Assembly: GCA_034509925.1 (NCBI GenBank)
Contig: CM067534.1
Location: 6,598,001-6,662,000 of the forward strand
DNA from: Hirudinaria manillensis
Taxonomy: Eukaryota; Annelida; Clitellata; Hirudinida; Hirudinidae
Direction of reading: 5' to 3'
Length of the DNA stretch: 64,000 nucleotides
Position 1 is the stretch's first letter. Each line of letters opens with the position of its first letter. The position numbers and the translations under genes are program-made. The notes beneath the pieces were generated by a model. That model saw only the letters and a program-made list of their open reading frames with translations, was not told where the DNA came from and made no database searches. This document shows positions 29,418 through 54,501 of the stretch, piece after piece.

Positions 29418-32406
29418 ATGGTCCAGAAAAAGAAACAACTTCAGAACAAACAATCGTGTATGTGGATAGCTGCTATTCAATTATATATCTTCAAATGAGA
29501 TTAAGAACTTTTATTTTCTAGTCTCAAGCAGATTTATCAGAGAATTGAAGGAACTTTTAGAAGAACATGAAACATATTTGTCGGTAAGAATCGACTGTGA
29601 TTTAATAATGCCTTCAATTCTACAGCCTGATAATTGTAAAGGCATTTTATTTTACTTGTTTTAGATTGATGAAAAAAGTTTTAGAAGATTCCGAAAAATC
29701 TCAGCCGAACTAAGGTTGTTTTGAAATTATTCCGACGCCCAATCACATAATTTTTCTTTGATATGCTTATCAAATCAATTATTCTCAGAATATCAACATA
29801 ATATTAATTATCACATCTAAGCAACGTCTACGTTATATTCTTAATAATGTCATTTCGCTGATAATCTCACCTTCTTTACAGTGCCATCTTACCGGACTTG
29901 AGCGACACGTCGATCTGTTCAATTGACGATATATTATATCCAGGCGAAAGCATTCCTGCTGCGAATCCAGGTTTGTGTGAGGCCTCCTCAAATGAATTAT
30001 AAATTTATTTAAAGGTCATTTATTTCAACAGGTAAAGGCAAAACAAAATCCTTCAAGAACACTGCCTTATTAGCTACGTATTGCTTTCCGTTATACCACA
30101 AGTTACTTGACAAACTTCGGGTAACTAATTATAAAATTGATTGCACGATATATTTAGTTTTAAATATTTCAAACAATATATAGAATCAACGACCACGCAT
30201 TCGTATTTTGGATCAAACGTACCTGCAATTGTTGGAAAACACAACTGGAGATTTATTGAATTCGGAAGAAAAGTTTGATTCTGCGTAAGGAGCCAGAATT
30301 TATTTACAGCCTTAAGGATTATTTCATAGACACATTTATTCAATAGACATTTTCCTAACGTTCCATTTTTTTTTACTTAATTTAATATCTATTTGTCTAG
30401 GTATAATCACAATTTGGAAACAAGAGACCAGATAAAATTATGCCTTTCATTAAAATTCCTGAAGGTTTGTCTTGATAAGGACGTGAGAATAATCAATGAG
30501 CTACGAAGTAAAGTCTATGTTTATTCCATAATTTAGTATTACAATAAAACTAATGATTAAAAACCTTAGTTACAGATGTTTTCTTACGTTTATCAAAACT
30601 GCAAAAAATTCCTCAAGCTAAAGATCCGCAGCAAAGGAGGCTTTGTAATTGGCTTGCTCAGCAATGTAAGATGACTCTGATATTAACAATGAAATTAAAT
30701 ATGTAATATTATTTTACAATTTACTAATTGGTAATGCATGACGCAATAACATATTAACGTTGTTAAGTACAAATTATTAGATATAGACGACCATCATGTA
30801 GATAATCATACCTTATATACAATTATACATGTTTTCCAGGCACTTCGATAATCTCAAAAATAGACCCGAAATCCTTTCACCTTAATTCAGATGTAATGAC
30901 ATGTTACGAAGTTTGCAATTCCTTGAAAGAGGTTATTAGTTTGCTATTTTCTTGAAAAGCATTTAGGGATTAATCGAAACGAATATTTCATCGAAAGGGT
31001 CTAAAAAAATGTGCGAATGTCTTTAATTTACTTTCAAATTCATTCTTTTTAGGAAGACCTTGACGAGAATTTTATAAATCTGTTGATGAGGACAACCAGT
31101 GACGGAAATTTCATATTAAATCTTCTTGATTCTTTGTACATATTCTTTAAGTCAGCAAAAGACAAAAATGCAAAACTCAAGCGCTTGGAGGATTTTCTGA
31201 AAGGCACATATTTAGTAAGTAATATTATGAAATACCGAAATCGTAAATTTATTGACCCTGATGTCTCAACATAATTTTATTGTTTGATCTATTTCCTTCA
31301 TTTTATAGAGTGTTAAAGAAGATGACGGATCCGAAGATCTGAGCGAACGTTTTGTATCGAAGATAATTTCAGTTTTAGAGACTATTGATTACAGACTTAT
31401 GTATTTATCCTGTGTAAGTATTTTTAAGCTTTTTTCTGTTGAACTAAACTTTTCGTTAATATAATTAAATGTTGTTATCACTTCAGACCTCCTTTACAGA
31501 TGAGTGCGTCGTGCGTGGCATTGAAAAATATCACAAACATATAATAAAACCATATTTGTCGGAGGATCCTAACAATGATCCAGGCGATCGATATTATGCC
31601 CAGATATATGAAACCGGCCTATTTTCGGAGGTCGATTATATAGATTTTAAATACGAGCGAGATTATACCATCGAAAAATTCCTTTGTTACGATGAGTTTA
31701 TGAGAGATTTGGAATTGATATCAATCATCCGCACCGCACATTCGATGCACGAGAGAATTTTTAAAGTTCGTAAGATTATGAAATCATTAAAACTCATTTA
31801 ATTTGACATTAAAAAAATGATACCAGTAATTTCACGAGTACATTATAAATCATTATGTTTGTCTTTATGCTGAAATATCACCGTAGCATCTTATCATTAT
31901 AGAAAAAAATTGATGAAGCGGTAATTTTCAGAAGAGCCGATATGTATGTTAGAGATGCGATTAGTTGTAAGTTTGGTCAGACAGCTTCGTGCCATTGTTC
32001 GACGATATGGTTTTATGAAGTCATCGTAAAAGAATGGTAGGAAGACTTTTATTTTATTTACTCCTTCAGTTAGATTAATGAATGCTTAAATTATTTATTA
32101 ATACTATATCATTGATTTATAATTTGCGAATGAATTTCTGCAGTCCTTTTTTGGTATTACCTGATGAGTTCATACACATGAAACAAGATGTAATAAAATT
32201 GCTCAACAAAGGCGCACTTGATATTGTGAGTGTTATAAGGATATTATTATTTTAAGGAATATTTGTTGCGGATTTCTCAGATCATTACATCGGTTATATC
32301 AATATTAATCATTGACAAATTATTTTCACAGGCAAAAATGGAATCTCTATATTTTGTCGTAAATAGTCTTGTTAGCGTGAAAAGTGGACGTTATGTTGAC
32401 GACTAA
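29418..32406 (+). CDS. Unrecognised 518-residue protein, copy A of inverted gene pair
   Basis: Fifteen exons join in frame: 29418-29457, 29522-29583, 29665-29714, 29882-29970, 30032-30120, 30184-30284, 30401-30507, 30576-30665, 30840-30931, 31053-31214, 31309-31413, 31487-31765, 31903-32036, 32144-32225, 32332-32406. I do not recognise the protein. It looks soluble and helical, with no signal peptide, membrane segment, clear repeat or catalytic motif. Recognisable stretches are FIRELKELLEE, YHKLLDKLR, LCNWLAQQC, NLLDSLYIFFKSAKDK, and the long exon 12 with GIEKYHKHIIKPYLSEDP and RYYAQIYETGLFSE. The ATG was chosen because the small first exon has a GTATGT donor in phase 1, conserved in copy B. 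AATAAA follows at 32452. The matching gene at 51139-54501 supports every exon. Confidence 0.75.
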
Positions 32407-32457
32407 GGTATGCAGTCACAGTTAAACGAACGCCGGGAGCTTATTTGTGAAAATAAA
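29418..32457 (+). repeat. Left arm of ~3 kb inverted segmental duplication
   Basis: Copy A from start codon to poly(A) signal matches copy B in reverse orientation in exons, introns and part of the 3' flank, for example GGCATTTTATTTTACTTG in intron 2. Intron conservation at base level means the duplication is recent or kept alike by gene conversion. Confidence 0.85.
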
Positions 32458-32800
32458 TGTGAAATTTAAATGAATCACATTTTTACGAATCACTGAGTTA
32501 CTTCATGTCGATAAGGTCGATTATTGTTATTTATTTCACGAACAGAAAGGCCCTTGATGCTAATTTGGAACATTAACCCAATAATGATCCCGCATCCATG
32601 CAATGCTCAAATTGATTTACTTCAGGTTTATGCTCTTACATTACAAACTGTAGCATTTGATAGCAGACCTCATTGCAGCAAATCAATGTTATTTTATTTG
32701 AGGACAGACCCTGTAGAGAAATCTTCCCAAACATTCAACATGATTTTCCAATGAGAAAATGCAGCAATGATCCAACATAAATAGTAAATAGATGAAGCTC
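32407..32800. other. 3' region between convergent copy A and BCS1L
   Basis: It begins with the copy A 3' UTR, including the poly(A) signal at 32452. GGGAGCTTATTTG and nearby bases here are shared with the 3' flank of copy B. The rest is the BCS1L 3' side, with nothing else recognised. Confidence 0.5.
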
Positions 32801-34598
32801 TTATGATTGGTTTATCAATTCTACTTTCCTAATTGCCTCTTCTGGGTCATTCTTGTGGAACATGAAATGGCCTTGAACCCCAGCAGGACTCAGGGATTTT
32901 CCAGGATTGAGTTTTCTTGCCATATTAACAAACAGCTGAGCTTGTTCCAAAGAGCATTGGGGATAAAATCTCGAGAACATGTTTTGTAGCTGGTAGTCTG
33001 AGCAGTGGTCAATCTTTATAGTCATATCGACTCTTCCTGGCCTCACTAAGGCTGTATCTAGCCTGTGAAGGAAAAGTGACAAAAGCATACAGTAAAGTCA
33101 AGGGAATAACAATAAGTGACTGCATTTATCTTGATAACAACATGACTTCAAGTCAAAGAAGTAACAATTAACACTAGTGGCAAACCTTTCTGGGTAGTTG
33201 GTGGTCATAAAAACTATCCTGCCTTCGGAAGGGGTTACGCCGTCTAGAGCATTCAAAAGTCCACTGAACGTCAAGGTACCCATTCCCTCAAAGGCCTTTG
33301 GATCTTTTTAACATCAATTAAGACTAATGCAATAACTAATTGCAGCAAACAAACAATCAAAACTTTTGTCAAAAGGAAAGATAAGTAAGGTAAGTTTTTA
33401 AAATATAAGATATTACAAGAATCATAAATTTGCATCTTAATAAATTTCATTAGTTTGGTCTTACTTTCCTTTGTGAGGTTTCGACTTTTAAATGCAGCAT
33501 CAATGTCTTCCAAGAGTATGATTGTCTGTTGTGGAGCGACACTCATAAGGTGAATGAGTCGATCATCAGACAATCCCATCTGGTTCAGACTCAATAAACA
33601 TATTCCATATCCCAATTCACCTTGAAAAATGAATTATATAATAGTCAGTTTTAGGAGTTCTGCATCAAATTTTAAGAACTTTAATCCACAAATGAAATAT
33701 GAGAATTTATAAAAACAGCTCTACTCACAAGCAAATCCTAAAATTACATAGCAGAAGTACCCCACCTGTATTCACTCACCAGCAAGAGCAGTGATGAAAC
33801 TGCTCTTTCCACACCCAGGTGGACCGTGAAGCAAGTAACCCCTCCGGTAAGGTATTCCTCTCTCCCCATACCAGCCCGAGCTCTTGCAAAATTCTTTAAC
33901 GTCACTCAATGCCATTTCAGAAATGCCTTTGTCCAAAATAACCGAAGAGACTGGTCTTTTCTTCATGGGTTGGCCGAAGGGTCTCCACTCACCCGCTGCA
34001 GGAATGTACATTATTGTTTTGCCCTCCTGCATCTGCAATGCAACTTCCCTGGCATTTGTGAGGATGTTGGCAAATAACTGCTGCTTCTTTCCAAATGCTG
34101 TCAGCTTGACAGATTCAAATGGAGCTCCAGTTTGCATATTTGTCATCTGCATAGTGGTAAACATCATTGTTTAATAATTTGTAGAATTGCATTCTTTAAG
34201 CTAAATCCATAAGTTTTACACCATTCTATGACATATACCTGATTTTCCCTATTGCGTTCCACTTGAATCCAGGTTCCATTATATTTGAAATGGTGTCGTC
34301 CCGGACCAGGGACAAAATGAAATTGCGTCTCAATCTGACCCTGAGTAGTCTGCTGAAAGGATGTGTTTACGCTGATGTGTTGGGTAATACGACCTTTGTC
34401 GTTGAGCCATTGAAGAAGCCACGGATAACTCTTGTCGCGGCTGGTTACTTCTAAAGATGTCATATAATATCGTCTGAACAGCACCAATCCATGCTGTGAA
34501 CCTCGCCTAAGAATTGCTAGTAGTGTACCTACACCGACAAGGCCAAAACCTGCTCCGAAGAACTGATTGTCCTTAAGTGATGCAAGGAACTCAGCCAT
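32801..34598 (-). CDS. BCS1L: Mitochondrial chaperone BCS1 (AAA ATPase)
   Basis: Exons 34598-34239, 34146-33780, 33620-33465, 33303-33186 and 33062-32801 encode 420 residues (human 419). BCS1 moves the folded Rieske iron-sulfur protein across the inner membrane into complex III. Seen: a short N-terminus with one hydrophobic segment (about residues 14-30), the BCS1-specific domain ([29 protein letters not shown]), Walker A GPPGCGKS at about 228-235, Walker [13 protein letters not shown], sensor LLNALDGV...[13 protein letters not shown], and arginine finger LVRPGRVD. No presequence is visible, as is usual for BCS1, which uses an internal signal. Shares its upstream region with MED18. Confidence 0.97.
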
Positions 34599-34933
34599 AA
34601 AAAGTTACCGAACAAGTTAATTATGCAATATAAGCGTCAATCTTTTAAGAGGGAGAGGAATACAAGATCGCTTGGACTGAAAAAGTCACGCCGACCACAA
34701 ATGATTAAAACGAGACGGGATTAACAGTAAAATTACTATCACCACAAACTGATATTTGCTAAAATCTTTTTTTTAAATATTTAAGTTGTTATTACCATTT
34801 CTAAAATTACGTTATGTGTAAGTATTTTGCTCAGCAAATGTAAAATATTTGCTTAACATTTAGTTGTTTACATGTTTCTACGAAAACATGCCGGGATAAA
34901 AAGAATTGCCAAACGTTCGTTCGGATTTGTAAT
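34599..34933. promoter_or_regulatory. Divergent promoter region, BCS1L / MED18
   Basis: 335 bases between two start codons pointing away from each other. No TATA box close to either gene that I would trust. A layout-based call. Confidence 0.55.
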
Positions 34934-36386
34934 ATGTCTTCTGAAGTGGCTAAAGTTGGCCAAGGGCCAAAAATTGAATATTTCCTCCAAGGAAGTATTC
35001 TTGAGAATCACAGGGAACTACTACTCAATCGTCTAAAAGGCTTGTGCGATATGGCTGAGAGCCCTCCAGAAAAGTTCAATGACCATGAGATGGTGTTTTC
35101 TTTACGTAGGTTTTTTGGTTATAAAAAACGTTATGCAGAGGAATGTAATATTGTTTGATTAAGCTAAAATGAATACAATTGCTATTAATAATATTCATGG
35201 AAGACTAATTAAGATGTTAAGTTTTTTATTTAAAATTAAATATTTCAGGGGGTCCTCCACCAACAACTCCTGTCGTTTTAAATGTTAGACATGCTTTAGA
35301 CCATCCTGACGAACCATGGTAGGAATCTCTTGTCCCATTTCTTTCATGGAATTTGATAATTACTACATTTGTAGGCACATAAAATGTGTTGGTACGTTTG
35401 ATTCTGGAGATGCTGCTCGTCCAACAATGACACGCAACATCGTTGAAGTGGGAGTAACGTCAAACATCACACAATTTCTATCAGAGATGGGATTCGTGTA
35501 GGCCATTTGCTTATTGACTTCTCATGTTAATATGTTAAGCATTTGTTTTGATAAAATTTTAAGTTGTTAAAAATACTCTTAAAATAACAGAATTATATTA
35601 ATTATGGTGAATAGCTATCATATCTTGCACTATTTTTGACTGCTTATACTCTGTTGGCTGAAGTTTTTTCTAAATTGATTTATTTAAATAAGATTAGATG
35701 AGAGATTATTTACCTTTTTTGCATAGGATGGACTTTGAATATGTTGCCAGAGGTTATGTTTTCAGGAAGGGTTGGCTAAAGACAACAGTATCCAAACTGA
35801 ATAAGGTTACTACATGTTATCTTGCTCAAAAAATAATCTCACCATCCATGAATGTCAAAATTGAACCCTATTTTGCTTAGTAACATAAAATGTTATCACA
35901 ATCTATATATTGACCAATACATCACCATCACCTGTGTCTAAAAATCTTAATAATAAAAGTGGAACACTGATGAGCATGAGGCAAGTCGAAAATCAACCAT
36001 GGCAAGTCTTGGAAAGGAAGAGTGACTTACTCCATCTTAATTGATCGCAGGTCATCAGTCCTGGAAACATGGAACATTTGGAGCCACAGTCAAACTTCCA
36101 TCTCGTCGAGTTGAGTGTCACTGCTAGCCAATCCCAGGACAAAGTGGCAGATGACATAAAGAATTTTGCAGAGCAGCTGAAACCGTAAGTCATGCTTTTG
36201 AAACTTGACATCATCCAAGGGTTACAATTCTTTTCAAATAATTTATAGCTCTAAACGAACTCCCAGTGATACAATGTACCATCAGCAGAAAATACACATA
36301 ATCAATTCATACTCATCCTAAAACTGAATTTTATTTGCAGTCTCGTGGTTCTAGAAAAGCTCGATTACAGAAGACTACCTCAATGA
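34934..36386 (+). CDS. MED18: Mediator of RNA polymerase II transcription subunit 18
   Basis: Exons 34934-35105, 35249-35318, 35375-35497, 35727-35805, 36051-36184 and 36341-36386 give 207 residues (human 208). MED18 is part of the Mediator head module and works with MED20. Seen in order: IEYFLQGSILENHRELLLNR, LKGLCDMAE, DHEMVFSL, RNIVEVGVTSNITQFLSEMG, MDFEYVARGYVFRKGWLKT, and the C-terminus KNFAEQLKPLVVLEKLDYRR, which parallels human FAEQLKPLVHLEKIDPKR. All phases agree. Convergent with the SR-factor gene. Confidence 0.96.
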
Positions 36387-36830
36387 CAAAAACTTATTTA
36401 CTAACCAAACATTTTTGATTTTTTTGGAATTGGTTAAAAAGAAAACACCGGGTACAAACAGCTTGTCATATTGCGGGTGCTCGGGTAGAATGCGGCACCA
36501 ACGTCCCACAAGCATTAATCTCAGAAATTCTAAAATGTGAGCAGCTATGGCAAACATGCAACCATGCCAAACAATTTTATCAGGCGGTATTGCTCTCAAA
36601 CCCAGATGAAGGTGATCTTCTCATTTTGACAAGAGTGGATTGCACCAACTAAGCAGGGCATTTGAAGACCAATATGATTGCATGACAAGAGGTGACAAGG
36701 ACCCTTAGTTACTTTTAATAAGTCAAACTGCTCAAAGAAATCCCCATAAAATCTGGGACAGGATAATAAAAAAATAGCCATAAAAGTTCCAGCTAATTCA
36801 GTCATTTCTCGCTCGCAATGATTGCAGAAG
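36387..36830. other. 3' region between convergent MED18 and SR factor
   Basis: It should contain both 3' UTRs. The minus-strand open frames here show no family motif and are read as chance. Confidence 0.45.
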
Positions 36831-38609
36831 TCAGTTGTTGCTTTCAGTTGGAGATACGGATCGAGATCTTGCATGCTTCTTCTGCGGACTGCGGCTGCTC
36901 GAACCCCTCTCTCTCTTTCTGCTCGAGGACTTTTCTCTATCCTCGTCGTCGGCTCTGCCGCAGCTGTGCCTGTCGTTCCTTCCGGGGCTGTCTTTGCGAC
37001 CTCCGCTGCTGCTTCTGCTGTAGCTTCGCGATCTATCTCTCGATCTAGATCCGCTGTGGGAACGCGACCTACAACCCCAAGGTTATTAGCCAGGAAGAAA
37101 TCAAAACTGTGGTAATCAAGTTGTTAATTGCCTTCTTTTTGCATCCATGACCTTTATTTTGCGTCCTTCAAATTCGTATCCATCATATTTTTCAATGGCC
37201 TTTCTAACGTCGGCACTAGAGGCAAACTCCACAACGCTGACAACAAATATGATTAATGAGAAAATGCTAATTAACATGGAATCCAACAAATCATACCCAT
37301 CCCCTGGCCTTATTTTATGGGCATCTGCAAACGTCACCTCACCAACTCTCTTCATCAGGTCTTTCAGATCCTGCATTTTGTAGAATTAGGTTAAAAGAAT
37401 AAACAGGTGTAAATACAAAGCTCAAAGTTCACATAAAAGAGGCATGTTAAAAACATCTACATCATGACAAAAGTTACCTGACTCACACAATAACTCAGAA
37501 AATTTGGGGTGAAGATCAGGCAGGAACCAACTAGTAAATGGTCCTATTGACCTGAGGAGGGTCCTGATAGCTAATTTATATTGGCCCCCATGTTCGGGCT
37601 TTTTATCTAAAGGAGAACCTCTAATGGATTGGAATCCCTCAAACAACAGTGATTTGATTGGGAGGTAGGAGGGAAGGAGGCCACCTTGGGACATCCACAC
37701 CTCTAGCAGGCAAAAGGAAGTGACCCTCAACATATACATTTAGGAAAAAATTCAGCACCCCCGATGTTAATGGTCCTCTCTAGCCAATAAGCTTTCAAAG
37801 AAACAATAAGAAATTATAAGTATTGTGTTAATGGATTGTTTTCTAGGCTTAACTGAAAAATATCCCAAAAATTTAAATTAGAAGCTAATAAAAATGATGA
37901 AAATTTCCCAAAATAATACTTCTCATAGCAATTGCAGTTCTCACCTGCCAAGAAACTCTGCTGGACAAGTTTTCAATAAGAACTCTATTTTCAGTTCTAA
38001 CAGGAGGTGGATTCCTAGGCCTAATTAAAATGCAACAAATTCTTATAATCCAAGCATGCACACAACTTAAGAAAAGAAATACCTAAAATCTGAATATCTT
38101 CCTCTATCTCTCCCAAAACTCCTTCTCATTGGGAAGTTCCCACTCCCTCTTCTTCCACCAAATCCACTTCCACCCCTAGAATCTCTTTTTGAATTAGGGC
38201 TTCTTGCTCTTTCAATCACAACTCTAAATAAAATTTTTAAGGTTGGATCTGGCTTACAAAGCATCACGACCCGCAGTGGTTTCAATGTATTCCAACCTTT
38301 CACCACACAGCTCCTTTCCATTCAAATCGTACACAGCATCATCAGCATCTCTGTCATCCTCAAAATTCTGTTTTATTATCAAATTTGAATAATTAACCTA
38401 GATTGGATCCTTTTAAACTTTAAACTAAATAAAATTAATTATTTTCCTAAGATCACATCGAGGAAAGCCCTCTTTATACAACTTACAACAAATCCATAGC
38501 CATCTTTAAGAGAAACCTCGGTTATTCTTCCGTAACCTTTAAAGAAATTCTCTACGTCTCTTTCTCTCGCATCTCGACTTAGACGCCCAATGTAAACCCG
38601 AACAACCAT
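36831..38609 (-). CDS. SR splicing factor of the SRSF4/5/6 (B52/SRp55) type
   Basis: Exons 38609-38487, 38367-38297, 38223-38083, 38020-37945, 37370-37297, 37236-37132 and 37068-36831 encode 275 residues. It acts in splice-site choice in the nucleus. Seen: RRM1 with RNP2 VYIGRL and RNP1-like KDGYGFVNF; a Gly/Arg linker; and an atypical RRM2 with SWQDLKDLMKRVGEVTFADA, the SR-family signature, plus VVEFASSADVRKAIEKYDG. The C-terminal RS domain starts RSRSHSGSRSRDRSRSYSRS and ends RSRSVSPTESNN. The last intron joins AAGAAG to GC rather than GT (donor GCAATT). The frame across it is exact and no usable GT donor lies close by. Which of SRSF4, 5 or 6 it equals cannot be settled; the short RS tail favours an SRSF5-like size. 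Confidence 0.93.
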
Positions 38610-39422
38610 TACGTTTAGAAAATCAGCAGTACCAAATCAACTCAAATCGCGGCCACGTAAGTAAAATGGAGGCTCATCGAAGTCGTTTGGTTTTTGGTAA
38701 ACGAAATAACATTTTAATTAATATGTGATCGGAGACCAAACTTATAGAAATTTAAATGAGTATTAATATTTAAGTTTATATATATGTTTTTAATTATTTT
38801 ATAGTGAACCAGTTACGGAGTTATTAAAACATTAAATAATTATATTATGTTAGCATGTACACATTCCTATACCCATAAGAATAATGACAAATCTAATTTT
38901 TTTACATTCCTTAATATTAAAGACATTTGTTTAGATGGAACTGGATTTTATTTTAAAATATCCGATGTAATATAAGAATGGCACTTTTTAAAATCATGAA
39001 CCTTAGAATTATCTCAGTGCTCTAAGAACGGGAATCATTTCCCTTTTCTAAAATTGTAGCTAGTAATACTACCAGCCAACACCATGTGGCACAAGCATTA
39101 GTCGATCCGGGACACGATCCCAAAATAGCTGCTGGCTTACTGCAGAATCCCAAGATCCACACACTCTAGGCCACCCAACATAACCTTCTAAATCCATGAA
39201 AGCATAGCTGGACCAGACTGTCAGAAATGAGGATTTTATATTTGGATGATCTCAATATAATCATATGAAACACTGCCCAAGCCATGTCTTACAGTTTGCA
39301 TAATAAATACACCATTCAGGTAACACTTGTTCATGTGACAACAAGCATGAACATACTACCGATATCAATTAAGGTAAAGATGGTTTTGATGTTGTTTATT
39401 AAAACTCTAACAGTCCCATCAT
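38610..39422. other. Promoter of SR factor and 3' flank of RPS10
   Basis: SR factor and RPS10 are on the same strand, so this holds the SR-factor promoter (near 38610-38700) and the RPS10 3' UTR. AT-rich; nothing else recognised. Confidence 0.45.
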
Positions 39423-40054
39423 TTATTCTTGATCTGGCTGTGGCTGAACAGGTCCAGCTCCACGTCCAAAACCTCCCCTCTGTGAAGGAAAGCCATGATT
39501 TAGATTGATTCAACAAATGCATCGCTCAACATGCTTTAACTTACAAAGTTGAAGTTGGCATTGGCACCAGCACCGGCTTCGCCCCTCTTGTCGGGTCCAC
39601 CTGGTCCCCTTCTGTAACCGGGCCTCTCATCACCAGGCATCTTTCCACCTTCGGGGACTCTTGGGCGTGACTTTCCAGCATCAGGTCTGGGAGCCTGAGC
39701 CTGCCTCTTAAGAGTAGTTGGGACAATCTCGGGTGGGAGATGGAGGAACTCCCTAAGGTAAGCAATGCCCTCGTTAGTGAGGCTCCAGTAGTAATGGCGC
39801 CAGCAAAATTGCTCCTTCACATATTTCTTGGAAACGAGAGACTATGAACAAGAACGATTCGTTAATAAATTGTCTGTTCCAATTTCGGACGATAATTGGA
39901 TTCAATTACTAACCTGAACAGCCTTAATGACGTGCAAGTTGGGAACATCAAGTTCGGTGTGCTTGGCGGCATGGAAATCCTTTTTGGCTACGAGAACTCC
40001 CTCTCTAAAGAGGTGCTCATAGATTTTAACACGGTTCTGCTTTGGCATCAACAT
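39423..40054 (-). CDS. RPS10: 40S ribosomal protein S10 (eS10)
   Basis: Exons 40054-39914, 39841-39545 and 39479-39423 encode 164 residues (human 165). eS10 is on the head of the small subunit. Seen: [20 protein letters not shown], the winged-helix core [20 protein letters not shown], the invariant [20 protein letters not shown], and a basic Gly/Arg/Pro tail ending [17 protein letters not shown]. The start codon lies ten bases inside an exon that has a TTTTCAG acceptor, so a non-coding first exon exists upstream. The upstream exon appears to begin with a terminal oligopyrimidine tract, as in most ribosomal protein genes. Confidence 0.98.
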
Positions 40055-40235
40055 CTTGGAGCTGAAAATAAATGATTTCCGGTCAGAAATATGGCGGCCA
40101 CTATGCTAACTCCAAAACAATCGCGACATGAACATAATACGATATGTGAATAAATCGATTTGCACTTTTAATATTTTCTATCCAAAGAGCAACTACTCGC
40201 GAAGTCCTGTTTACGAATTAGAAAAATAGCGCTAC

Positions 40236-40264: not shown

Positions 40265-40603
40265 ATGGTAGTCAGTAAACACTCAAAGAACCAAAAAGAA
40301 CAATGTCCACTAGAGTATATATTAATATAAAAAAATAATATATTAAACAAATATTTAAATACAATTTTATTTATAAAGTAAAACTTATTAATATTTTTTA
40401 AAAAGTTAAATAATAAAAATAGAAAAAATGTTGCTAATGGAAACGATTTATATTTTATAAGAATGTTTTGGCTATCCGTACATTTTGAAGTGCCTTACAC
40501 TTTAATTTATAATGTTATCGTCGATAAAAATAATTTATTTGCAATAGACACTTATTGGAAAAAATACCCAACTTAACTATATCTTAAATTATATACAGAT
40601 ATA
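40265..40603. promoter_or_regulatory. Divergent promoter region, RPS10 / LRRC56
   Basis: Very AT-rich stretch of about 340 bases between the inferred RPS10 start and the LRRC56 start codon. TATATACAG just before the LRRC56 ATG could be an acceptor, so LRRC56 may have a non-coding first exon. Confidence 0.45.
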
Positions 40604-43424
40604 ATGTCAACTTTCAATAATAGTGACGAGGTTAATGTGAATATAAATAAATTAAACTCTGGTTCTGAATCCAGACCATCTAGTGCACTTTTGAGAGGTG
40701 TTAAAATAACTGAATTTAACGAAAATAAAATTAACCCCGAACCGGTAACGTTAGAAGAATTTGATTTTTTTGTCGGTGATGCTTTAAGCCCTGCCAAATT
40801 AGTAAGTTATCTAGATATTTTTTTAAACAAAGGTTATTGTATTGTTCCTTATTTAATTTTAATGGTTGTTAAACATAATTAGAGGGATCTAACTGGATGC
40901 GATAATTTATCTGAAGTCGAGACTTTGGAATTGAAAGTGAACACACTTGGAAAAAGTCTTGGTAATTTTGGAGAGTATTTGCCAAAGTTGAATTTATTGA
41001 AGCTATCACATAGTGTTGTCCCAGTTGTGAGGTAAAGGGAAAATCTTTTATATTATTAGTTATATGGTACAAACCAGACAAACATTAATTTCAATTAAAT
41101 AACTAAAAAAGTTATAAAATAGTGATTGTAAATATTTATTTTTCAAGAATTACATGGATTCTTCTTATATCTACATAAATGTTCTAGGTGTAAATCTATA
41201 ACAATTTATAATTCAGTGAATGTGGATATTTAGGAAATTTTGGTGCTAGTGTTTATTTTCACTTTTTATATTAACTTGGAAACACCTCTAGTGTGAATTT
41301 CATGACATGTAAACACATACTGAGAGTTAAATCAAATTTGAACTTATGCATGAACTTTCATCACATATAGATATAAGGAATTATAGAAATGAATTAAATC
41401 TCCATTTTTTGCCTTTGTTTAAAGGGATCTAGGAAGTTGTTTAAGGAATTTGAGAGTGTTGCACATGTGTAGGTCGGGAGTGACAGACCTCGATGGTCTG
41501 CCCATGTTGGTGTCTCTCAGAGAACTTTACTTGGCTTATAATGACATAACTGATATCAGCAGCTGTGGTCTTCTTGAGCACTTGACGATTCTTGACCTAG
41601 AAGGGTAAGTCAATCTTTTGTGAGCCTGTAATTCAAGATTGATTTAAAATAGATTCTTTTAAAAATAAGTTGCTGATGTTCATTTGTGATGTTAATTTAG
41701 CCAATAATCTCTGATGATATAAAGCTAATTTATAATGTCTGAAATGATTTGATTAATCAACTAATAACATACACAAAAAAATGTTTTTATGACTGCATAT
41801 CAAGAGGTTCTTGTAGAAACAATGTTTCGGACCTGTCTCAACTGTCATTCCTTGGTCTCTGCTCTAACCTAACTAGCCTGACTTTGGAAGGTAATCCATT
41901 GTGCATAAGACCTCAGCACAAGGACTCAAGTAAGGTAAGTAACAGATTCAATAAAAGCAAATATTTGATATTCTTGAAATGATTGTTAGTCATAAATATG
42001 AATTAGAATGTCCATTTTATATCTAAATTTCACATAAATCAATTCAGAGTAGTTAAAATGTGAATGTTTAATATTATTTAATTAATTATCCACAAATTGT
42101 AGGTGAATTACAACTACAGAGAAGCTGTTTTAGATGAAATACCGCAGCTGAAGGTTTTGGACGGGCAGCCAATACCTGTCGATAGCACAAAAGTAGAGCA
42201 TCAAGAAGATGACTCACCAAAATGTGGACAAGAAGTTCATGCAAAAGATTCATGCGATAAGAATCTGCTTGACCTACAAGAAGATTGGGACATGCTGTAT
42301 GATCTGATGGGGGATGACACTGTGGCTGAAGCTGATGAATCACCCCCAAACTATTTTCAGCCCAACGGTCTTTCCTTCGTTTATGATATAATAATTTTTA
42401 ATACCAGTAATAATAGTATCATTATATTATCATTACTGGTGGTTTTTTAGAGTCTTGAAAGTTCACCTTTGTTCCAGGGCGACCCATGACCCAACGACCC
42501 CTAACTTCCCAGTCTTCCATACACAGACCAGGATCTTCGATGAAAGCCGGAGGGTTTAGATCTAACGTACAAAGCATCGGCTCATTTCCAAAATCAGTGC
42601 CACTTGGAAGGTCAGAAGACAACTTCAATAGTTCTGCGACTGCTTTCGATGCTGGAACAACATCTGTTGATTCATTGAAACGAATTTCGACTCCCAGGAC
42701 CTGTTCTTCTATGGAATCAGGAGTTTACTCTGCCTCAAGTTTGTGTCCTTGTAACTGTTTATTATGATAATTGATAATTGTTTAAGTAGTTGAGTGGTTT
42801 TTGCAAATTATGAAACTTAAAGTTCTATCTTCCAATATTGAATATTCCAATATTGCATATTTTATTGAAGCATTTCAGCCAGTGTAATTAATTTGAAATT
42901 AACTTATTTTTGACTTATTATCAGCATCATTAATTGGTTTAGATGTTATGTTAGGTAACTGTTTGTCAGTGATCTCATTGCTACACCTTTTGTAGTTCAC
43001 CAGTTCTTGTTTTGATATGCAGTGTTGTGATCCTAATTGGAAATTCATTTCTTTTGAATTGATGTGTATGTATATTTCTGTATGTATGTATATTTAGATT
43101 TGGAAATCACAACTTTAGAGGATTGTCCATCAGGCATGGTTTTCTGTGGCAACCTCGCTAGGGCCATGAGGTTCAGAAAGCAGCCTACCCCTCTCAAAAA
43201 ACTACTCATGAATGATGATAATGATAGGCACGACCAAGTTGGCAGTAAACATGAACTGCCTTCTTATCCTGAGGTATGGAGTTGCTTAAATTTGCTAGCA
43301 ATTGTGTGTTTCAATGCTCACTTTTGCTAGAAGTATTATTATTGCTGTAAACTTTGTAGTCATCATCACCATCGTCATGACCACTATCGTTAAACAAATA
43401 ATAAAAAAAGATATCTTGAAAGGG

Positions 43425-43472
<48 letters not shown>

Positions 43473-44626
43473 CAGGGAAGAGTCCTTATCCTTGATAAAG
43501 AAGAGGAGTCACATTCATTGGACTCTGATTTGGAGGATATGAGGATTCACATAAAAATGTTTGTGAATAGATTTTTGTGAATAGATACCAACTTCATTTC
43601 ACTTGTAAAAGTTCAGAGTTCAATTGAATCTACTTAGAATCATCATTCAGTGCAATCGCCTCTTGACTGACAGAAATAAGTTTTCTTCCACAGGTCTATT
43701 GAACACATCAAAGCCAAAAAATCGCCCCAAATTTTAAAAATCAGTCACGAAAGAAATTCTGACAATGAAGATGATGCCATTTGTTTGAGTGATGATGATA
43801 ATGATGAAGATGAAGTGACTTCACTTAGAAATGACAAGCCGCTGACTGGTTGCACAAGTGAAAGGGACAGGAAACTGGAATCGCTAGAAAGTTTTGCTGA
43901 TTATTTCATAGGTTCTTTTTTTGTCAGACTTTTAATGAACCATTATTTAAGTCAAAAAAGTGTCTCCTTTTCTCCAATAATTATTTTAATGTTTTCCAAA
44001 CATATTTTTACTGCAGAGTTGTCATCAAATCCTATCGATTTCAAGTCAAAGCAATTTGAAACTGATTCTGACCTGATGAAGCACTTTGACGAAGAAGAAA
44101 AAAATGAGGAAGTAAAAAATTGCAAAGTCAAATGTTTATCAGGAAGTGACGTGAAGTTGAAAAACGATGCCAGGCAACAAAATATCAAAAGATGTAACAA
44201 ACCACTTCTGAATCCTTTGGAGATGCCTTCAAGCTTAGTTTTATCAAATTCAAAGAAGAAGAAAGAATGCCTGAGGTAACTTTATGCTCTTTATCACAAG
44301 TGAAATTAATAAAGTGCAGGTGATGTTTTAAGTATTTGTGCTTGTTTTTGATCTTCATTGTGTTTACAAATCTTCACAAGAGACTATAAGCTTCCTGTGA
44401 ATTGAAACTTTGCAGACTCAATCCATTGCCTCAAACATCCCTTAAACCAGGCCACGACTTCCCGACGAAGGCGTTTCTCAAGCTGCCGACGTTGTCCTCC
44501 GATCCCAGATCTCGGACGCATGCAAATCCGACGATGAAAGGTTCAAGTTCAACTGTGTCCCCTCTCCATCACAAGACTGTCATGAAATCTGCTTCACAAT
44601 TTCTCAGAACAGGAGAAATCAATTGA
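40604..44626 (+). CDS. LRRC56: Leucine-rich repeat-containing protein 56
   Basis: Exons 40604-40801, 40883-41031, 41425-41604, 41817-41934, 42103-42367, 42478-42738, 43098-43273, 43476-43558, 43694-43911, 44017-44275 and 44416-44626 encode about 705 residues. LRRC56 is needed for intraflagellar transport of outer dynein arms in motile cilia. Seen: leucine-rich repeats VETLELKVNTL, LPKLNLLKLSHS, LRNLRVLHMCRSGVTDLDGL, LVSLRELYLAYNDITDISS and LTSLTLEGNPLC, then the cap VNYNYREAVLDEIPQLKVLD typical of this protein. Further on come GRPMTQRPLTS and MVFCGNLARAMRFRK, a stretch I associate with the family, and then a disordered acidic and basic tail. The intron-7 acceptor sits directly after a GATT array. 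The C-terminal tail is long and low in motifs. Confidence 0.92.
43426..43472 (+). repeat. GATT tetranucleotide array next to a splice acceptor
   Basis: About twelve TTGA/GATT units run straight into TTGCAG, the acceptor of LRRC56 exon 8 at 43476. The array therefore replaces the usual polypyrimidine tract. Confidence 0.9.
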
Positions 44627-46442: not shown

Positions 46443-46480
46443 CACGTGAACTTTCTACGAAGTAAGGGTCGTCTATAAAA
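46443..46480 (+). promoter_or_regulatory. 4E-BP promoter: E-box CACGTG and TATA box
   Basis: CACGTG at 46443-46448 and TATAAAA at 46474-46480 lie about 200 bases before the 4E-BP start codon. A TATA box here predicts transcription starting near 46505, giving a 5' UTR of about 180 bases. These are the clearest core-promoter elements in the window. Confidence 0.6.
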
Positions 46481-46685
46481 GCGATGAGGCGCGATGCTAA
46501 AACGGAGGCAGTTGGAGAGAAAGTTGGTCTCTTGAGTAGATTTAAGAGATATTTGTTTTTAAGATTTAGAGTGGTCGGGGGTAGGAAGAAGACAGTGACA
46601 GCCGATATCAAAATTGAGTAGGTTTGAAGATTTTGCGCAGAAACTTTTTGAAAAGAAGTGATCCAGTTTTCCTACGCCGACGGTC

Positions 46686-49131
46686 ATGTCAAGTGTTGCC
46701 CACGAATTACCTGCCGTGTCGTCATCAGCTCCAGCTAAGCATATGGTCATCAGGCAAGTGCAGATGGCGGATGCTTATCCTGGAGAATACAGTTCTACAC
46801 CTGGAGGTACCTTATTCTCAACCACACCAGGAGGTGAGAATTTTGCCAACTATGTTGCCTAATTGTAAAATAAGAGTATACTTGGGCCTTGTTCATACAA
46901 TATTTATTCATTAATAATATAAAATACATTTTATATGGAATTTATGAATTTGATTCAAAATTCTAAAAGTGCACCATAAACCAGTTACACTTATCAGTTG
47001 TATCAAACCACTGTGTATCATTTTTGAAACAAAATAGTTCAATTGCCGCAAGATATGCCAGTTGTGCATAAACATGTTCCAACTTTGAATCCGAAATGTG
47101 AGGACATGACATGAGAATCATTACAAATTTAATTGCAACAAATTGCAACATGCCTTTTGATCAAAATATTCAGAGCAATGCATGTGATTTGAGAAATTGA
47201 AATTCTGCCCACTTTAGAGAAGAAACTGAGAGACTTTAATGAGAGAATTGTCTGAAATGAAATTGGTTCAAGCATTGATAAGCCAGACAAAGTTCAGAGT
47301 TCAGCAAAGGTTCAGGATGGGGATATTGTTTTCATAATTTGAAATTACCTGAATCCTGGATAGCATAGATCCTAATTTAGGAGCCTGGAATTTCAGTATG
47401 GATACAACACATACTAGCCATTTGCATTTTTTGAAATGAATTATTATTATGTTTAATTGACAATGACATTTCTCAAAACCAACATTGCCTTTTCATTTAC
47501 AATAGGGATTATAGCTTAAAATATTTTTGGCTGTCAAATATTATTACCTCATAAGAGTGCATTTTGGACTTAAAGTAACAAGAATAGGGATGTGTTTTAT
47601 GATTGCGTCCTTATCCTGATCTTAAAATATGTTTGTTTTCAATTTCTGAGAAAAACACATGTTGTAATATCAGAAAAACAAAATTAGTAATAAAATGGGA
47701 AAATGATGAATTGGATAAATTGGGTCAAAGATTGTCACCCAGTGATTTTACTCAGTCAAATTGGGTTGTTGTTTAGTCCTATTTCTCCAGTACCTTTAAT
47801 TATTTCTTGTTTTTCTTGCTAACAAAAAATATCTTTTACTTTTTTGTGAGATGAAAACACAGAAAATGTATGAAGGGAAATGTTGAGAGACAGTTGAGTT
47901 AATTTTTTTCTTAGGCAGACCCTGATGAGTGCAAAACTATTTATAGCCCACAAAGATGTTAGAATTTTCCAACTATCTGCCTCCTTGTTAATACAAAATT
48001 ATCATCATCATCATGGCCATTAAATGATTTTGAAATTTCTACTATCTAGACCTAAATTACAAGCATTGGTAAATTTTAAACATCATGTGACTCCTAACAT
48101 ACACATTTTTAAAAGAAATTTTAGGTTTACAAAGGCTGAAATAGTATTAATAACTGAATATTTCATTACTTTAATTATTTACAGAGCTTATTTATCTGTT
48201 TTAAATAGATACGGAGCAGTCTCACATAAACATTTAGAGCATCATGTCTTAAGATGCCAATCTCAAAGTCCTGGATGTTTTAGAGATGAATTCGTTAATA
48301 TTTTATGGTCTTAAAACAAAAATAAAACATTATCAATCAAGCCTGAGAATGGTGAAGTCAGAAGTATCTCCATTTTGAATCTAACAGCTTATAAATAAGT
48401 TTTGGTTCAGTCTCTAGGAAAAATGAGAATGACTCATTATCGATGAATTATCATGGCAGGTGTGAGCTTGCAACGAATATTTGTTCTAATATGTGTGGGA
48501 TGCCAGACATTTTGTAACCTTTATTGGCTACATTCTGACCTTCTTAATAGGATATTTAAGTTGTTTAGGGATAAAAAACCTAAATAATCAAATCCACAGC
48601 AAAATGGTCAGAATATTGATTATTATATATTTGTCTTCATGACTTTGAAATTAGTTAATATTGGATTGCATGGTTTGAATGTAGAAAAGAATTTAGAGTT
48701 ACCAAAGCCAACCAAAGTCCAAATTTGATAATTTAATGAATTTTATGAATATTTAAATGAATCTTTTCATTTAATCAAGGAACAAGAATCATCTATGACC
48801 GAGCTTTCCTCATGCAATGCAGAGAATCTCCATTGGCTCGGACTCCGCCTAGCAACCTGCCGATGATACCCGGAGTCACGTGCCCCAAGCAGAAAAAGAA
48901 CCACCACAAAGGCAGCAGTCCTCTGTCTACAAGTCCAAACAAATCCAGTTCATCCAAGAACAAATTTCATGCTCAAGGTTCTACACTAGTTCAGAAGGAA
49001 CAATTTATTTGTGCCTTAAGCTAATGCATCAGATTAGTTTTACACACAAAATATTTCCAGGTGCACAGTCCCACCATCATGCTGCTCAACAATGCCATGG
49101 TGAAGATGCTCAGTTCCACATGGACCTGTAG
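46686..49131 (+). CDS. EIF4EBP: eIF4E-binding protein (4E-BP)
   Basis: Exons 46686-46833, 48780-48977 and 49061-49131 encode 138 residues. 4E-BP binds the cap-binding protein eIF4E and blocks translation until phosphorylated by mTORC1. Seen: the two phosphorylation repeats STPGGT (about 37-42) and STTPGGT (45-51), the eIF4E-binding motif YDRAFLM (55-61, Y-x4-L-phi), later sites ESP and [13 protein letters not shown], and the C-terminal TOS motif FHMDL (134-138) that binds Raptor. A lysine- and serine-rich stretch after the IPGVT block is longer than in vertebrates. I see no clear RAIP motif near the N-terminus. The second intron is phase 1, and only that reading gives the TOS end. AATAAA lies at 49562. 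Confidence 0.95.
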
Positions 49132-51138
49132 ACATTCAATTATCTCCTAGACAGTCAACAATTCCTGTCTCCAAAGTGCTCAGTTATCACTTTTGCATAT
49201 GTATCTGTTTCACTTATCTTATTGGACAGTTCAACACTCAAGTCTGGCCTGATCTGGCTTGTCGTTTCGATTTATCCACCATATTTCCTTACTATTTCTT
49301 GTTGTCACCAAGGCTAACTTCACGATGGTACTCGGAGCTTTAAATGTAATTTGTTTTCTGGCAAGAAGTCATCCGTCAGCTTTAACTTGTTTCGATCCAA
49401 AATCTCTAATGGACAGAGATCAAATGTTCTGTGATACTATTAGTGACTATTGCAAGGGTGAATGCTTCAATCCTGAGATTTGAGAATTCATTTGCTTTGA
49501 ATTTGTGGCACGATTTGAGCATAATTGTTACTTATGTTTCATTGTTCTTTGAACAATTCAAAATAAAGCCAGGTGAAAGCATGGAGCTTGTTTTCGTTTT
49601 GTCCTACATTTTAGAAATGTTTACATTCTGCAACCAGCTGCTTTAAACCTGAATATGTACAACAATAACGATTCAAAGCATAAATTTAAGTACATGCCCA
49701 AAAGGTAATAGAACTACAGCTCAAAGATAATAGCACATATTTATATTCGAAACAGAGCTCGTGAGAAAAAAGAAGAGGAGATTGTGAATTACATTTGTAA
49801 TCTTTATTTGTATTTACTAATGGGGATTTTGCATCGTCTCTCCCTCTAATCACTTAAGATTATGCCTTTAGCAATTATTTACGTTTGTCTCTATTTATTT
49901 GGTTTATAAGTTTATACGTTTAAGAACCTTTAACCATTTGGGCGCAACACAGACGAAACAAACTCGATAATATTTACGATAATCATGTTCTGCGTCGTTT
50001 CTTTTATTCAAAAACGCGCCACTTGTTTTGTTTACTAGAAATCCTTCAAATATGCTTCTCGAATTTAGTACCACTTGTGTAAAATGTGGATACGACGACA
50101 TTTATGCTTTTTATTTTCAACTCCTTTTGCTCGACGGTTCGTAATGGCACCCTCAAAAACCAGCCTCACGAAACATAATCACAATAGATTTAAATGAGAC
50201 CTGTTGCAACTGGGCCACTAAATCTAGTGAAATAGGTTAATGTTAATAGGTGACAACATGTGCCTGGAAATTGACCTTTGACGAATTATTTGTGGGGCGA
50301 GCAGATGGTTCCAGAAAATACAAATTAACCTTCAATTTAATTCCTTAACAATATTCAAGTTGTGGTCAAGAAAAGAGCCTGACATATTTGATGAAATTTG
50401 ACAAAACACATCGCGTTGTCTAAAAATTTGGTTTTATTGGAATATTGAATTTCACATTATTTAGCGAACATCTTCGAAGTCTCGAAGAGTCGAATCAATG
50501 AAATTGTTTTTAATTGTAACGTTTAAGTTATGCGAAATTTTGTATATAAATACATAAATTACTGCCAAGTTATTTAAAGAGGTTCAAATGTATGCCTAAG
50601 CGTTTGTTTGTAGCGGAGTCATCCAAATGGCCGCCTATAGGTCAGATCCACCCCGTCAAGGGGTGGAATGGCTCGTAAAGATACAACAGACAACTTCAAA
50701 CACTGTTATAGAAAATGTAATGGACTGATGTTACAGAAATTATAATGGGCTTAATTTTCATTCTCCTTTTTAATTTCCAATTAAATTTAAACTAATGCCA
50801 GCAGCCTCATGTCTCACCCTAAGTATTTATACAAAAATAACTTGAAACTTTGGAAATCGAAACACGATTAAACCTCACAATTTTTTAAAAGCTATCACGA
50901 ACAACAAAAGAAATAACTGGAGAATCAAGCTGTTTCTGAGTGAATCGGTTCAAGCAAAGAGCTCAGCTAGAGGTAAATCTCATTGAGCGCTGTATGGATG
51001 TAGAATATTATTTAATGTCAACAGCCTTTCTATTCGTAAAATAAATAATAATAGATAAACCTAAAGCAACTCATTTATTCGTTCAAATTTCAAATTTATT
51101 TTCATCAAATAAGCTCCCTGCGTTTGCTATTGGATGCC
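49132..51138. other. 3' region between convergent 4E-BP and copy B
   Basis: It holds the 4E-BP 3' UTR (AATAAA at 49562) and, at the right, the copy B 3' UTR (AATAAA motifs on the minus strand near 51075 and 51100). The middle has no recognised gene. Confidence 0.45.
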
Positions 51139-54100
51139 TTAGCTGTCAACATATGGTCCACTTTCCACGCTAACAAGACTATTAATGACAAAATACAGAG
51201 ATTCCATTTTTGGCTGTGAAAACAAATGATCGGTGACTAATAGTGAACAACAAATACTCCATAAAATAATATCTTAAACTCACTTCGTCTAAATTTCTAT
51301 TGTAAAGGACATTTATTACGTCTTGTTTCATGTGTTTGAACTCATCAGGTAATATCAAGAAAGGACTTCAAAAAATGAATCGTAAATTTATAATAATATT
51401 AATAATGATGATGATGATAATAATGATGATAGCAACAACAATAATAATTTAATCACTCATTAATCGGAGTAAAATAAAAAAAAAGAATGAAAAGCTTTCC
51501 TACCATTCATTTACGATGATTTTATAAAACCAAGCCCGTGAACAGCGGGGACAAATAAGACCCTTTAACAATCCAATAAGCGTTTGCCTGAGGAAAATAT
51601 CGGCCCTTCTGAAAACCATTGCTTCATTAATTTGTATCTAAAACGACAAAATGTGATGGTTCAAGTCAATCGTAATGTAAAATATACTTGTACTTAATGG
51701 TTTGTGTCGTACTAGGACAAGGACAAGAAGTACAATTAATGGCTTATTGATAATTCCATATTCTTACATCAAAAATTGTAGTGTGAGTCAAAAATGCGGT
51801 GTGAATGATTGACAGCAATTCGACACCTCTCATAAAATCATCGTAACAAAAGAATTTTTCGACGGTGTAATCTCGCTCGTATTTAAAATCTATATCATCG
51901 ATCTCCGAAAATAGGCCGGTTTCATATATCTGGGCATAATATCGATCGCCTGGATCACTGTTAGGATCTTCCGATAAATATGGTTTTATTATATGTTTGT
52001 GGTACTTTTCAATGCCACGAAATAAAGACTCATCTGAAAAGGAGTACTGAAATGATAACATATAATTAGATCAGCAATTTAGTTAGACTAAAAGTAGCTA
52101 AAAAAAATACTTGCAGCGAATAAATAATTAAGTCTATAATCAAACGCTTCTAAGATTGAAATCATCTTCGACACAAAACGTTCGCTCAGATCTTCGGGTC
52201 CACCATCTTTAACACTCTAAGGAATTAAGGAAATCGATCAAAAGCTATATAAAATCGTATTATATAAATAGATCGAAGTAGAGTGAATTTATCCCGAGCC
52301 TATGTTATATATTTACGATTTCCTTATATCATAATATTACTTACTAAATACGTGCCTTTCAGAAAATCCTCCAAGCGCTTGAGTTTTGAACTTTTGTCTT
52401 TTGCTGACTTAAAGAATATATACAAAGAATCAAGAAGATTGAACATGAAATCTCCGTCACTGGTTGTCCTCATCAACAGATTTATAAAATTCTCGTCAAG
52501 GTCTTCCTAAAAAGAATGAATTTGAAAGTAAATTAAAGACGTTCGCACATTTTTTACCCTTTCGATGAAATATTCGTTTCGATTAATCCCTAAATGTTTT
52601 ACAGGAAAATAGCAAATTAATAACCTCTTTCAAGGAATTGCAAACTTCGTAACATGTCATTACATCGCGATTAAGGTGAAAGGATTTCGGGTCTATTTTT
52701 GAGATTATCGAAGTGCCTGGAAAACATATATAATTATCTACATGATGGTCGTCTATATCTAATACTTAACAACGTTAATATGTTATTGCGTCATGCATTA
52801 CCAATTATTTGTAATACAATATTACATATTTAATTTCATTGTTAATATCAACAGAGTCATCTTACATTGCCGAGCAAGCCAATTACAAAGCCTCCTTTGC
52901 TGCGGATCTTTAGCTTGAGGAATTTTTTGCAGTTTTGATAAACGTAAGAAAACATCTGTAACTAAGGTTTTTAATCATTAGTTCTATTGTAATACTAAAT
53001 TATGGAATAAACATAGACTTTACTTCGTAGCTCATTGATTATTTTCACGTCCTTATCAAGACAAACCTTCAGGAATTTTAATGAAAGGCATAATTTTCTC
53101 TGGCTTCTTATTTCTAGATCATAATTGTACCTATACAAATTGAAATTAAATTATGAACAAAATTGGATTTCTTTGAATCTTTGACCCTTTGAGCCCTGCA
53201 GGGCTGTGAAATTTAAACTATTCCGCAGTAAACGACGTGATTAATATTAATTAGATTGTAAACTCCGCCCATCAGTGCTGTCCACCAGTGATGCCAATTT
53301 GAAATGTATCTATCTTTATTTTAATTTAACATAATTATCTATATTCTGATTTAATTTATGAAACATATATTAATTGTATTTATTTAATGTATTAAATAAA
53401 ATCTATTATTCACTGGACAAAAAATAACAAATGAAATATCATTGTTTAATTATTATTCAAATGTAAAATAACATATATACATTTCAAATTGACAATACTA
53501 GTGCCATTCATATTGATTGTCAGAGTTAAGTTTGCGTTGGGGGATAATATTGACGAAGTTTTATGCGGTTTTGGACAGTTTCTCTCCCAAAGGATCAAAG
53601 GGCTATCGCTATACAGAAATTCTGGCTCCCTTACGCAGAATCAAATTTTTCTTCTGAATTCAATAAATCTCCAGTTGTGTTTTCCAACAATTGCAGGTAC
53701 GTTTGATCCAAAATACGAATGCGTGGTCGTTGACTCTATATATTGTTTGAAATATTTAAAACTAAATATATCGTGCAGTCAATTTTATAATTAGTTACCC
53801 GAAGTTTGTCAAGCAACTTGTGGTATAACGGAAAGCAATCCGTAGCTAATAAGGCACTGTTCTTGAAGGATTTTGTTTTGCCTTTACCTGTTGAAATAAA
53901 TGACCTTTAAATGAACATACAATTCATTTGAGGAGGCCTCACACAAACCTGGATTCGCAGCAGGAATGCTTTCGCCTGGATATAATATATCGTCAATTGA
54001 ACAGATCGACGTGTCGCTCAAGTCCGGTAAGATGGCGCTGTTAAGAAAGTGAGATTATTTGACGTATTAGCGAAATCACATTAGTAAGAACACAACGTAG

Positions 54101-54501
54101 ACGCTGCTAAGATGTGATAATTAATATTATGCTGATATTCTGAGAATTGATGAATATATCAAAGAAAAATTTTGACTATGCGTCGGAATAATTTCAAAAC
54201 AACCTTAGTTCGGCTGAGATTTTTCGGAATCTTCTAAAACTTTTTTCTTCAATCTAAAACAAGTAAAATAAAATGCCTTTACAATTGTCAGGCTGTAGAA
54301 TTGAAGGCATTATTAAATCACAGTCGATTCTGACCACCAAACATGTCTCATATTCTTTTAGAAGTTCCTTTAATTCTCTGACAAATCTGCAAGACTCTGG
54401 AAAATAAAAGTTCTTAATTTTATGAATCAGATCGATAATTGAATGACAACTATCCACATACGCGATGTTTTGTTTTGAACTTGTTCCTTGTTCTGGGCCA
54501 T
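51139..54501 (-). CDS. Unrecognised 517-residue protein, copy B of inverted gene pair
   Basis: Exons 54501-54462, 54396-54335, 54253-54204, 54037-53949, 53887-53799, 53735-53635, 53130-53024, 52955-52866, 52716-52625, 52506-52345, 52216-52115, 52046-51768, 51637-51504, 51365-51284 and 51213-51139 join in frame. All match copy A in length except exon 11, which is 3 bases shorter. The protein is closely similar to copy A: FVRELKELLKEYETC, GIEKYHKHIIKPYLSEDPNS, RYYAQIYETGLFSEIDDIDF. It differs most in exon 13, where a CPRC pair appears. Intron 11 has a GC donor (GCT|GCAAGT) where copy A has GTAAGT. Intron 6 is 504 bases instead of 116 because of an insertion. No stop or frameshift was seen, so I read it as a working gene, not a pseudogene. 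Confidence 0.74.
53185..53602. mobile_element. Fold-back MITE-like element in intron 6 of copy B
   Basis: About 418 bases absent from the same intron of copy A. The left end starts CCCTTTGAGCCC and the right end, read on the other strand, starts CCCTTTGATCC. Further in, both sides carry CCGCA-TAAA and a TCAATATT/TTAATATT block, and later CAATTTGAAATGTAT. The element is thus an imperfect palindrome with no coding frame, as in non-autonomous DNA transposons. The CCCTTT terminus recalls piggyBac-like ends, but no clear TTAA target duplication is visible. Confidence 0.6.

Follow-up and report, generated by a model that had tools for sequence, protein, structure and literature searches.

Inverted gene pairs that are kept similar by gene conversion are familiar from the palindromes of the mammalian X and Y chromosomes, and inverted paralogues under conversion are an already known kind of locus. 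The pair of genes described here, A and B, from the medicinal leech Hirudinaria manillensis, is like those palindromes in that its copies are inverted, its introns are as similar as its exons within certain tracts, and its divergence is patchy. It is unlike them in its short arms, of about 3.3 kb, which are separated by 18.7 kb and resemble each other mainly in the middle of the gene; a large near-identical arm is missing. A second comparison is with the tandemly expanded, lineage-restricted gene families of invertebrates, which the family of A and B (about 81 loci) resembles in its arrays, dispersed single copies and shared intron layout, whereas the absence of a recognised domain, the opposed orientation of several of its blocks and the three intronless loci found here set it apart. 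In the same species, the available part of PMC10671345 describes multigene families of antithrombotic proteins as clustered on one or few chromosomes, an arrangement that the family of A and B shares; the antithrombotic proteins covered there are secreted and mostly disulphide-rich, while the A and B family has no obvious signal peptide or membrane segment as judged by hydropathy. The hirudin-family matches above the cut-off in our searches are located on contig C4.

The window, that is, the whole stretch of 64,000 nucleotides analyzed, covers positions 6,598,001 to 6,662,000 of contig C9, and the genome searched comprises 148.43 Mb in 23 contigs. A sequence-only reading of the window had proposed two intact inverted copies of a 15-exon gene. 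At the level of sequence, this proposal stands: the exon models of A and B (Table 1), which were built by hand, were checked with a purpose-written spliced protein-to-DNA aligner. It reproduced all 15 exons of A and placed the 15 matching ones in B, a check that is not independent of the A model, as the query was A's own protein. As had been claimed, 14 of the 15 exons agree in length and one is off by 3 nt (exon 11, 105 nt in A and 102 nt in B). The frame is likewise open throughout in both copies, over 518 and 517 codons, that of B being kept only with a GC donor (GC-AG intron) after exon 11. The donor of intron 2 in B is weak (GTCAGA). The two genes are convergent, their 3' ends facing each other across 18,732 nt, and the proteins are identical in 417 of 517 alignment columns. 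All 14 introns are present in A and B; a retrogene pair, for which intron loss would be expected, was rejected on these grounds.

Table 1. Positions of the features in the window (strand relative to the window; B coordinates read 5' to 3' along the gene)
Feature	Position	Strand	Remarks
Gene A	29418..32406	+	15 exons, stop included; 518 aa; CDS 1557 nt with stop
Gene A exons 1-5	29418-29457, 29522-29583, 29665-29714, 29882-29970, 30032-30120	+	
Gene A exons 6-10	30184-30284, 30401-30507, 30576-30665, 30840-30931, 31053-31214	+	
Gene A exons 11-15	31309-31413, 31487-31765, 31903-32036, 32144-32225, 32332-32406	+	stop included
Gene B	54501..51139	-	15 exons, stop included; 517 aa; CDS 1554 nt with stop
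Gene B exons 1-5	54501-54462, 54396-54335, 54253-54204, 54037-53949, 53887-53799	-	
Gene B exons 6-10	53735-53635, 53130-53024, 52955-52866, 52716-52625, 52506-52345	-	
Gene B exons 11-15	52216-52115, 52046-51768, 51637-51504, 51365-51284, 51213-51139	-	stop included
GC donor, B intron 11	52113..52114	-	GT in A
Repeat insertion, B intron 6	53181..53589	-	in break between tracts 1 and 2
Arm A	29210..32550	+	homology to arm B detectable; gapped alignment
Low-divergence tract 1, A	29587..30301	+	31 differences in 705 aligned sites; spans intron 2 to intron 6
Low-divergence tract 1, B	53617..54331	-	
Low-divergence tract 2, A	30434..31230	+	22/766 differ; exon 7 to intron 10
Low-divergence tract 2, B	52329..53097	-	
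Low-divergence tract 3, A	31532..31706	+	9/175 differ; inside exon 12
Low-divergence tract 3, B	51827..52001	-	
Gene 1, BCS1 (mitochondrial AAA ATPase)	32801..34604	-	PF08740, PF00004 on 33772-34170; extent by eye
Gene 2, Med18	34844..35158	+	PF09637; first exon region only
Gene 3, SR-type splicing factor (RRM, RS stretches)	36834..38636	-	by eye from ORFs
Gene 4, ribosomal protein S10 (RPS10)	39539..40105	-	PF03501 on 39536-39841; rest by eye
Gene 5, leucine-rich repeat, LRRC56-like	40577..44279	+	by eye; extent uncertain
Gene 6, eIF4E-binding protein (4E-BP)	46662..49021	+	by eye, ORFs 46662-46859, 48761-49021

An inverted-repeat scan of the window returned 10 inverted segments of 83 to 430 nt, 83 to 97% complementary, plus shorter ones, that pair 29.5-32.4 kb with 51.1-54.4 kb. 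In the gapped alignment, homology of the arms is weak upstream of the ATG (about 60%) and reaches 85% in the 120 nt or so that follow the stop. The alignment of the whole gene contains 400 differing sites among 2,885, and its longest exact run is 116 nt. The arms of about 3 kb predicted from sequence are present at the expected spacing, but they are old and uneven and do not form a uniform repeat. Similarly, the claim that introns are conserved at the base level is correct for the middle of the gene (93 to 98.5% identity in introns 2, 4, 5, 7, 8, and 9) and fails for introns 10 to 14 (63 to 80%) and for intron 6, which is 388 nt longer in B than in A; introns 1 and 3 are 81% and 89% identical, respectively.

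Along the arms, divergence forms a mosaic in which three tracts (705, 766, and 175 nt) at 2.9 to 5.1% lie between segments at 20 to 36%, with 34/169, 47/132, 65/291, and 192/647 sites differing in the segments that separate or flank them. A scan with two rates reached a log likelihood of -1045.6, compared with -1161.2 for one rate and -1212.6 for the best of 1000 site shuffles. Inside the low tracts, 33 of 724 intron sites and 29 of 922 exon sites are different between the copies; the corresponding counts for the high segments are 182 of 608 and 156 of 631. A and B thus show the clear-edged tracts of low divergence, introns included, by which a gene-conversion pair is recognized. Silent divergence follows the same course, with a dS of 0.05 in exons 4 to 6, 0.08 in exons 7 to 10, 0.25 in exons 11 and 12, and 0.55 in exons 13 to 15. 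Along with the identities per exon and intron, a dN/dS value had been proposed as a check on the pair; it is 0.57 (95% codon bootstrap, 0.42 to 0.82; NG86 counting with Jukes-Cantor correction and 1000 resamplings). A and B have each retained the splice layout and an open frame, and their amino-acid-changing sites have diverged less than their silent ones.

We consider it probable, at roughly 0.82, that A and B are paralogues that arose by inverted duplication and that ectopic conversion subsequently rewrote the middle of the gene. In this scenario, a DNA-level inverted duplication would have copied one gene with little flank, since the introns were kept and the neighbours were not copied, and the dS of the last three exons would make this event old. 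Exchange between the inverted arms without crossover would then have rewritten the middle (exons 4 to 10), while the ends of the gene went on diverging. A mosaic of low- and high-divergence tracts is what such exchange between arms would leave, and gene conversion explains it best. Two copies give neither the direction nor the date of an exchange, and crossovers, or a third paralogue taking part in the exchange, can likewise make divergence uneven. A close third donor is unlikely, though for the 5' part only, because a genome DNA search with the first kilobase of A matches A and B only.

The repeat inserted in intron 6 of B may interrupt the pairing of the arms, since tracts 1 and 2 stop on either side of it. 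Searched with window positions 53170-53620 of the minus strand as the query, it has nine other places in the genome at 68 to 82% identity, most of them partial, and query positions 32 to 440 match other contigs. It contains an internal inverted repeat (window 53283-53503) with 45-nt arms that are 78% complementary, and its sequence resembles a non-autonomous element.

Stronger constraint on the middle of the gene after one duplication, with no exchange at all, could be read from the position of the family's conserved core, which is partly in the middle exons: of the 14 columns invariant among 12 aligned family members, 7 fall at residues 66 to 205 of A. However, protein constraint does not explain the mosaic, since the introns of the low tracts are nearly as similar as the exons and far more similar than introns outside, and dS falls along with them from exons 13-15 to exons 4-6; constraint alone is very improbable and was rejected. 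False duplications are common in draft genomes, and C9 also includes a nearly identical piece of mitochondrial sequence, perhaps misjoined, so that one of the two genes might be a haplotype copy placed inverted by the assembly. We rejected this explanation as hardly credible because the divergence is too high, reaching 30 to 36% in segments; moreover, A and B sit in different flanks, B carries an insertion that A lacks, and the published HiFi reads could cross one arm plus both flanks. According to the available part of PMC10671345, those reads average 18.73 kb, and the assembly made from them has 22 scaffolds, 148.59 Mb, an N50 of 11.46 Mb, and 13 chromosomes (14.76 to 8.30 Mb), plus the mitochondrial genome.

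The remaining alternatives concern what has become of the pair. Crossover between the arms, in addition to conversion, would flip the 18.7-kb block with its six genes, and both orders would segregate in the species. The two longer tracts, at 3 to 4% divergence and with exact runs of up to 116 nt, lie in inverted arms, and the mosaic, which suggests past exchange of sequence between these, lends indirect support to the earlier suggestion that the arms could recombine; yet exact identity is short, the single assembly holds no visible marker of a past inversion, and conversion without crossover suffices for the data, making a flip unlikely. It is also rather improbable that one copy, probably B, has recently become a pseudogene without yet losing its intact appearance. 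The GC donor of intron 11, the weak donor of intron 2, and the repeat in intron 6 would all fit a decaying B, but its 517 codons have remained without a stop or frameshift after long divergence, dN/dS is below 1, and GC donors occur in five further family models too (L031, L038, L041, L042, and the partial L035-2). Inverted duplication followed by gene conversion remains our preferred reading of the pair.

With respect to copy number, the sequence-only reading knew of two copies, and its picture of an isolated pair proved too narrow: among the matches listed, about 81 loci, including A and B, are related, 63 of them on C4, C6, and C8. By contig, the loci among these matches number 4 on C1, 3 on C2, 1 on C3, 20 on C4, 2 on C5, 31 on C6, 12 on C8, 4 on C9, 2 on C10, 1 on C11, and 1 on C13. 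The count was obtained by merging exon-level matches by hand, and some places are partial or weak (C4:8961145, C6:9421356, and C2:9190031); some of the loci may be pseudogenes or fragments. Protein A as the query gave 88 exon-level genome matches at E values up to 10 (best 83 of 170 candidates scored), and two more members gave 132 and at least 151 at E values up to 0.01 (best 86 of 339 and best 90 of 418 candidates scored), so that some matches may have escaped these searches. Blocks of the family often face oppositely, as on C4, with five genes on the minus strand at 1.904-1.926 Mb and four on the plus strand at 1.971-1.987 Mb, and on C8, with two on the plus strand at 0.936-0.941 Mb and seven on the minus strand at 0.962-0.996 Mb.

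We modelled 24 loci with a profile; 23 scored above the limit, giving 28 models, and L040 fell below it, with a partial model otherwise. Internal stops are absent from all 28 models, which is weak evidence of intactness given an aligner designed to steer around them. The invariant columns of the 12-sequence alignment include a CPF motif at 467-469 of A; protein A is 20 to 36% identical to the 10 paralogues. Eight of the 14 intron positions of A are common to at least 20 of the 23 intron-bearing models, in the same phase and within three columns. For introns 1 to 14 in turn, the numbers of models sharing the position are 0, 3, 22, 15, 3, 20, 7, 23, 22, 10, 23, 23, 23, and 23; many models end short of introns 1 and 2. 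Both in its conserved columns and in the positions and phases of its introns, A belongs with the array family of C4, C6, and C8.

While the other full models of the family have 12 to 15 exons, three loci are intronless, one of them on C9 (at 2.478 Mb) and the other two on C10, each with one open frame across the match; the frames at L023:2459-3886 and L024:2070-3716 span 475 and 548 to 567 codons. These members are either old retrocopies or survivors of an intronless ancestor. In a tree of 27 rows, comprising A, B, and 25 models after exclusion of three shorter than 400 aa, A and B are sisters (100/100) and are joined next by C5:7.38 Mb (98/98), which sits on a long branch and is unsure in its placement, as are the two intronless rows, on very long branches. 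Divergence is uneven in all nine pairs inspected (A/B and eight chosen ones), each lying above all of its 300 shuffles, by the narrowest margin at 2.5 against a shuffle maximum of 2.0, on a measure that differences in constraint between exons and introns and alignment error also raise. L041 (C8:3.78 Mb) and L042 (C11:4.02 Mb), which lie on different chromosomes, share 94% identity in both exons and introns, so copies of the family also move between chromosomes. A literature search that included the available parts of PMC10671345, PMC10087013, PMC11897028, and PMC7303139 yielded no description of the family, which may still be published; among expanded families in H. manillensis, the available part of PMC10087013 names FBN1 and GLB3.

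The gene had been called unknown, and no relative of it came up in Pfam, PDB, or the viral and prokaryotic collections. Pfam gave no match to A or B at E values up to 10. In NCBIfam, A matched two phosphoribosyltransferase models, PyrR at 15.3 bits (cut-off, 218) and HGPRTase at 13.8 bits (cut-off, 150), both of which we take for chance. Across 12 members, the best E values were 0.0023 in Pfam, 0.013 in NCBIfam, and 0.004 in PADLOC, each in one member only, and no assignment to any family of these three collections resulted. Searches of PDB by sequence or profile found no match for A, the intronless member on C9, or the 12-sequence profile and two insignificant ones (E values of 0.31 and 0.64) for an intronless member on C10. 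The viral and prokaryotic collections returned 82 and 71 pattern matches, among which no relative was confirmed.

The highest mean Kyte-Doolittle value over 19 residues is 1.24 in A and 1.19 in B, and by hydropathy alone neither protein has an apparent signal peptide or membrane stretch. Hydrophobicity averaged over the alignment is most strongly periodic at 100 degrees per residue (5.1 SD over 50 shuffles), the period that amphipathic helices would give. Because of the low hydropathy and this periodicity, we read the product as soluble and largely helical; most likely, it is an intracellular, alpha-helix-rich protein without a recognised domain. Mean propensities for helix and strand are nearly equal in A (1.03 versus 1.01), and AlphaFold predicts exon 12 as helical in two sequences, at the low confidence of a mean pLDDT of 51.8. 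It might serve in immunity or the germ line, as a recognition or scaffold protein that multiplies, but this is only a guess, and a doubtful one.

Between A and B lie at least six genes, in agreement with the number first reported, three identified by Pfam match and three named by eye from open reading frames (Table 1). For the latter, one overlapping frame of the SR gene (36596-37123), three frames in the LRRC56-like stretch, and two other frames in the 4E-BP stretch had no Pfam match. Rfam, at gathering thresholds, had no match over the window. At window positions 9228-14661, imperfect trinucleotide-repeat stretches of the ATT/ATC type pair as inverted repeats. Elsewhere on C9 (L052, around C9:3026446), a segment of 2,871 bases or more, with a COX1 match, is 99.7% identical to the mitochondrial contig C23 (L053), with eight mismatches and no gaps; it is either a very recent nuclear copy or a misjoin, and ARAGORN found no tRNA at the COX1 locus. 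COX1 on C23 appears to follow the invertebrate mitochondrial code, its AGR codons standing where serine is expected and AAA where lysine is. A sea squirt as the source was rejected, an 18-mer from the spliced leader of Ciona being missing from the genome. PTEN_C2, taken as a species marker, has three matches, the two best of them in a gene that by eye resembled tensin, and was uninformative.

In conclusion, two results stand out as most useful, namely the conversion mosaic and how large the family is. A and B are a clean natural case, with visible tract edges, a repeat at a tract break, and an about tenfold range of silent divergence within one gene. More broadly, a sequenced medicinal leech has some 81 loci of one family in which no domain is recognised. 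A tentative reading, with the odds against it, is that this family is undescribed and perhaps leech-restricted, that it encodes helical intracellular proteins, and that its oppositely facing copies would keep trading sequence, so that mosaic variants arise much as in a rapidly evolving recognition repertoire.
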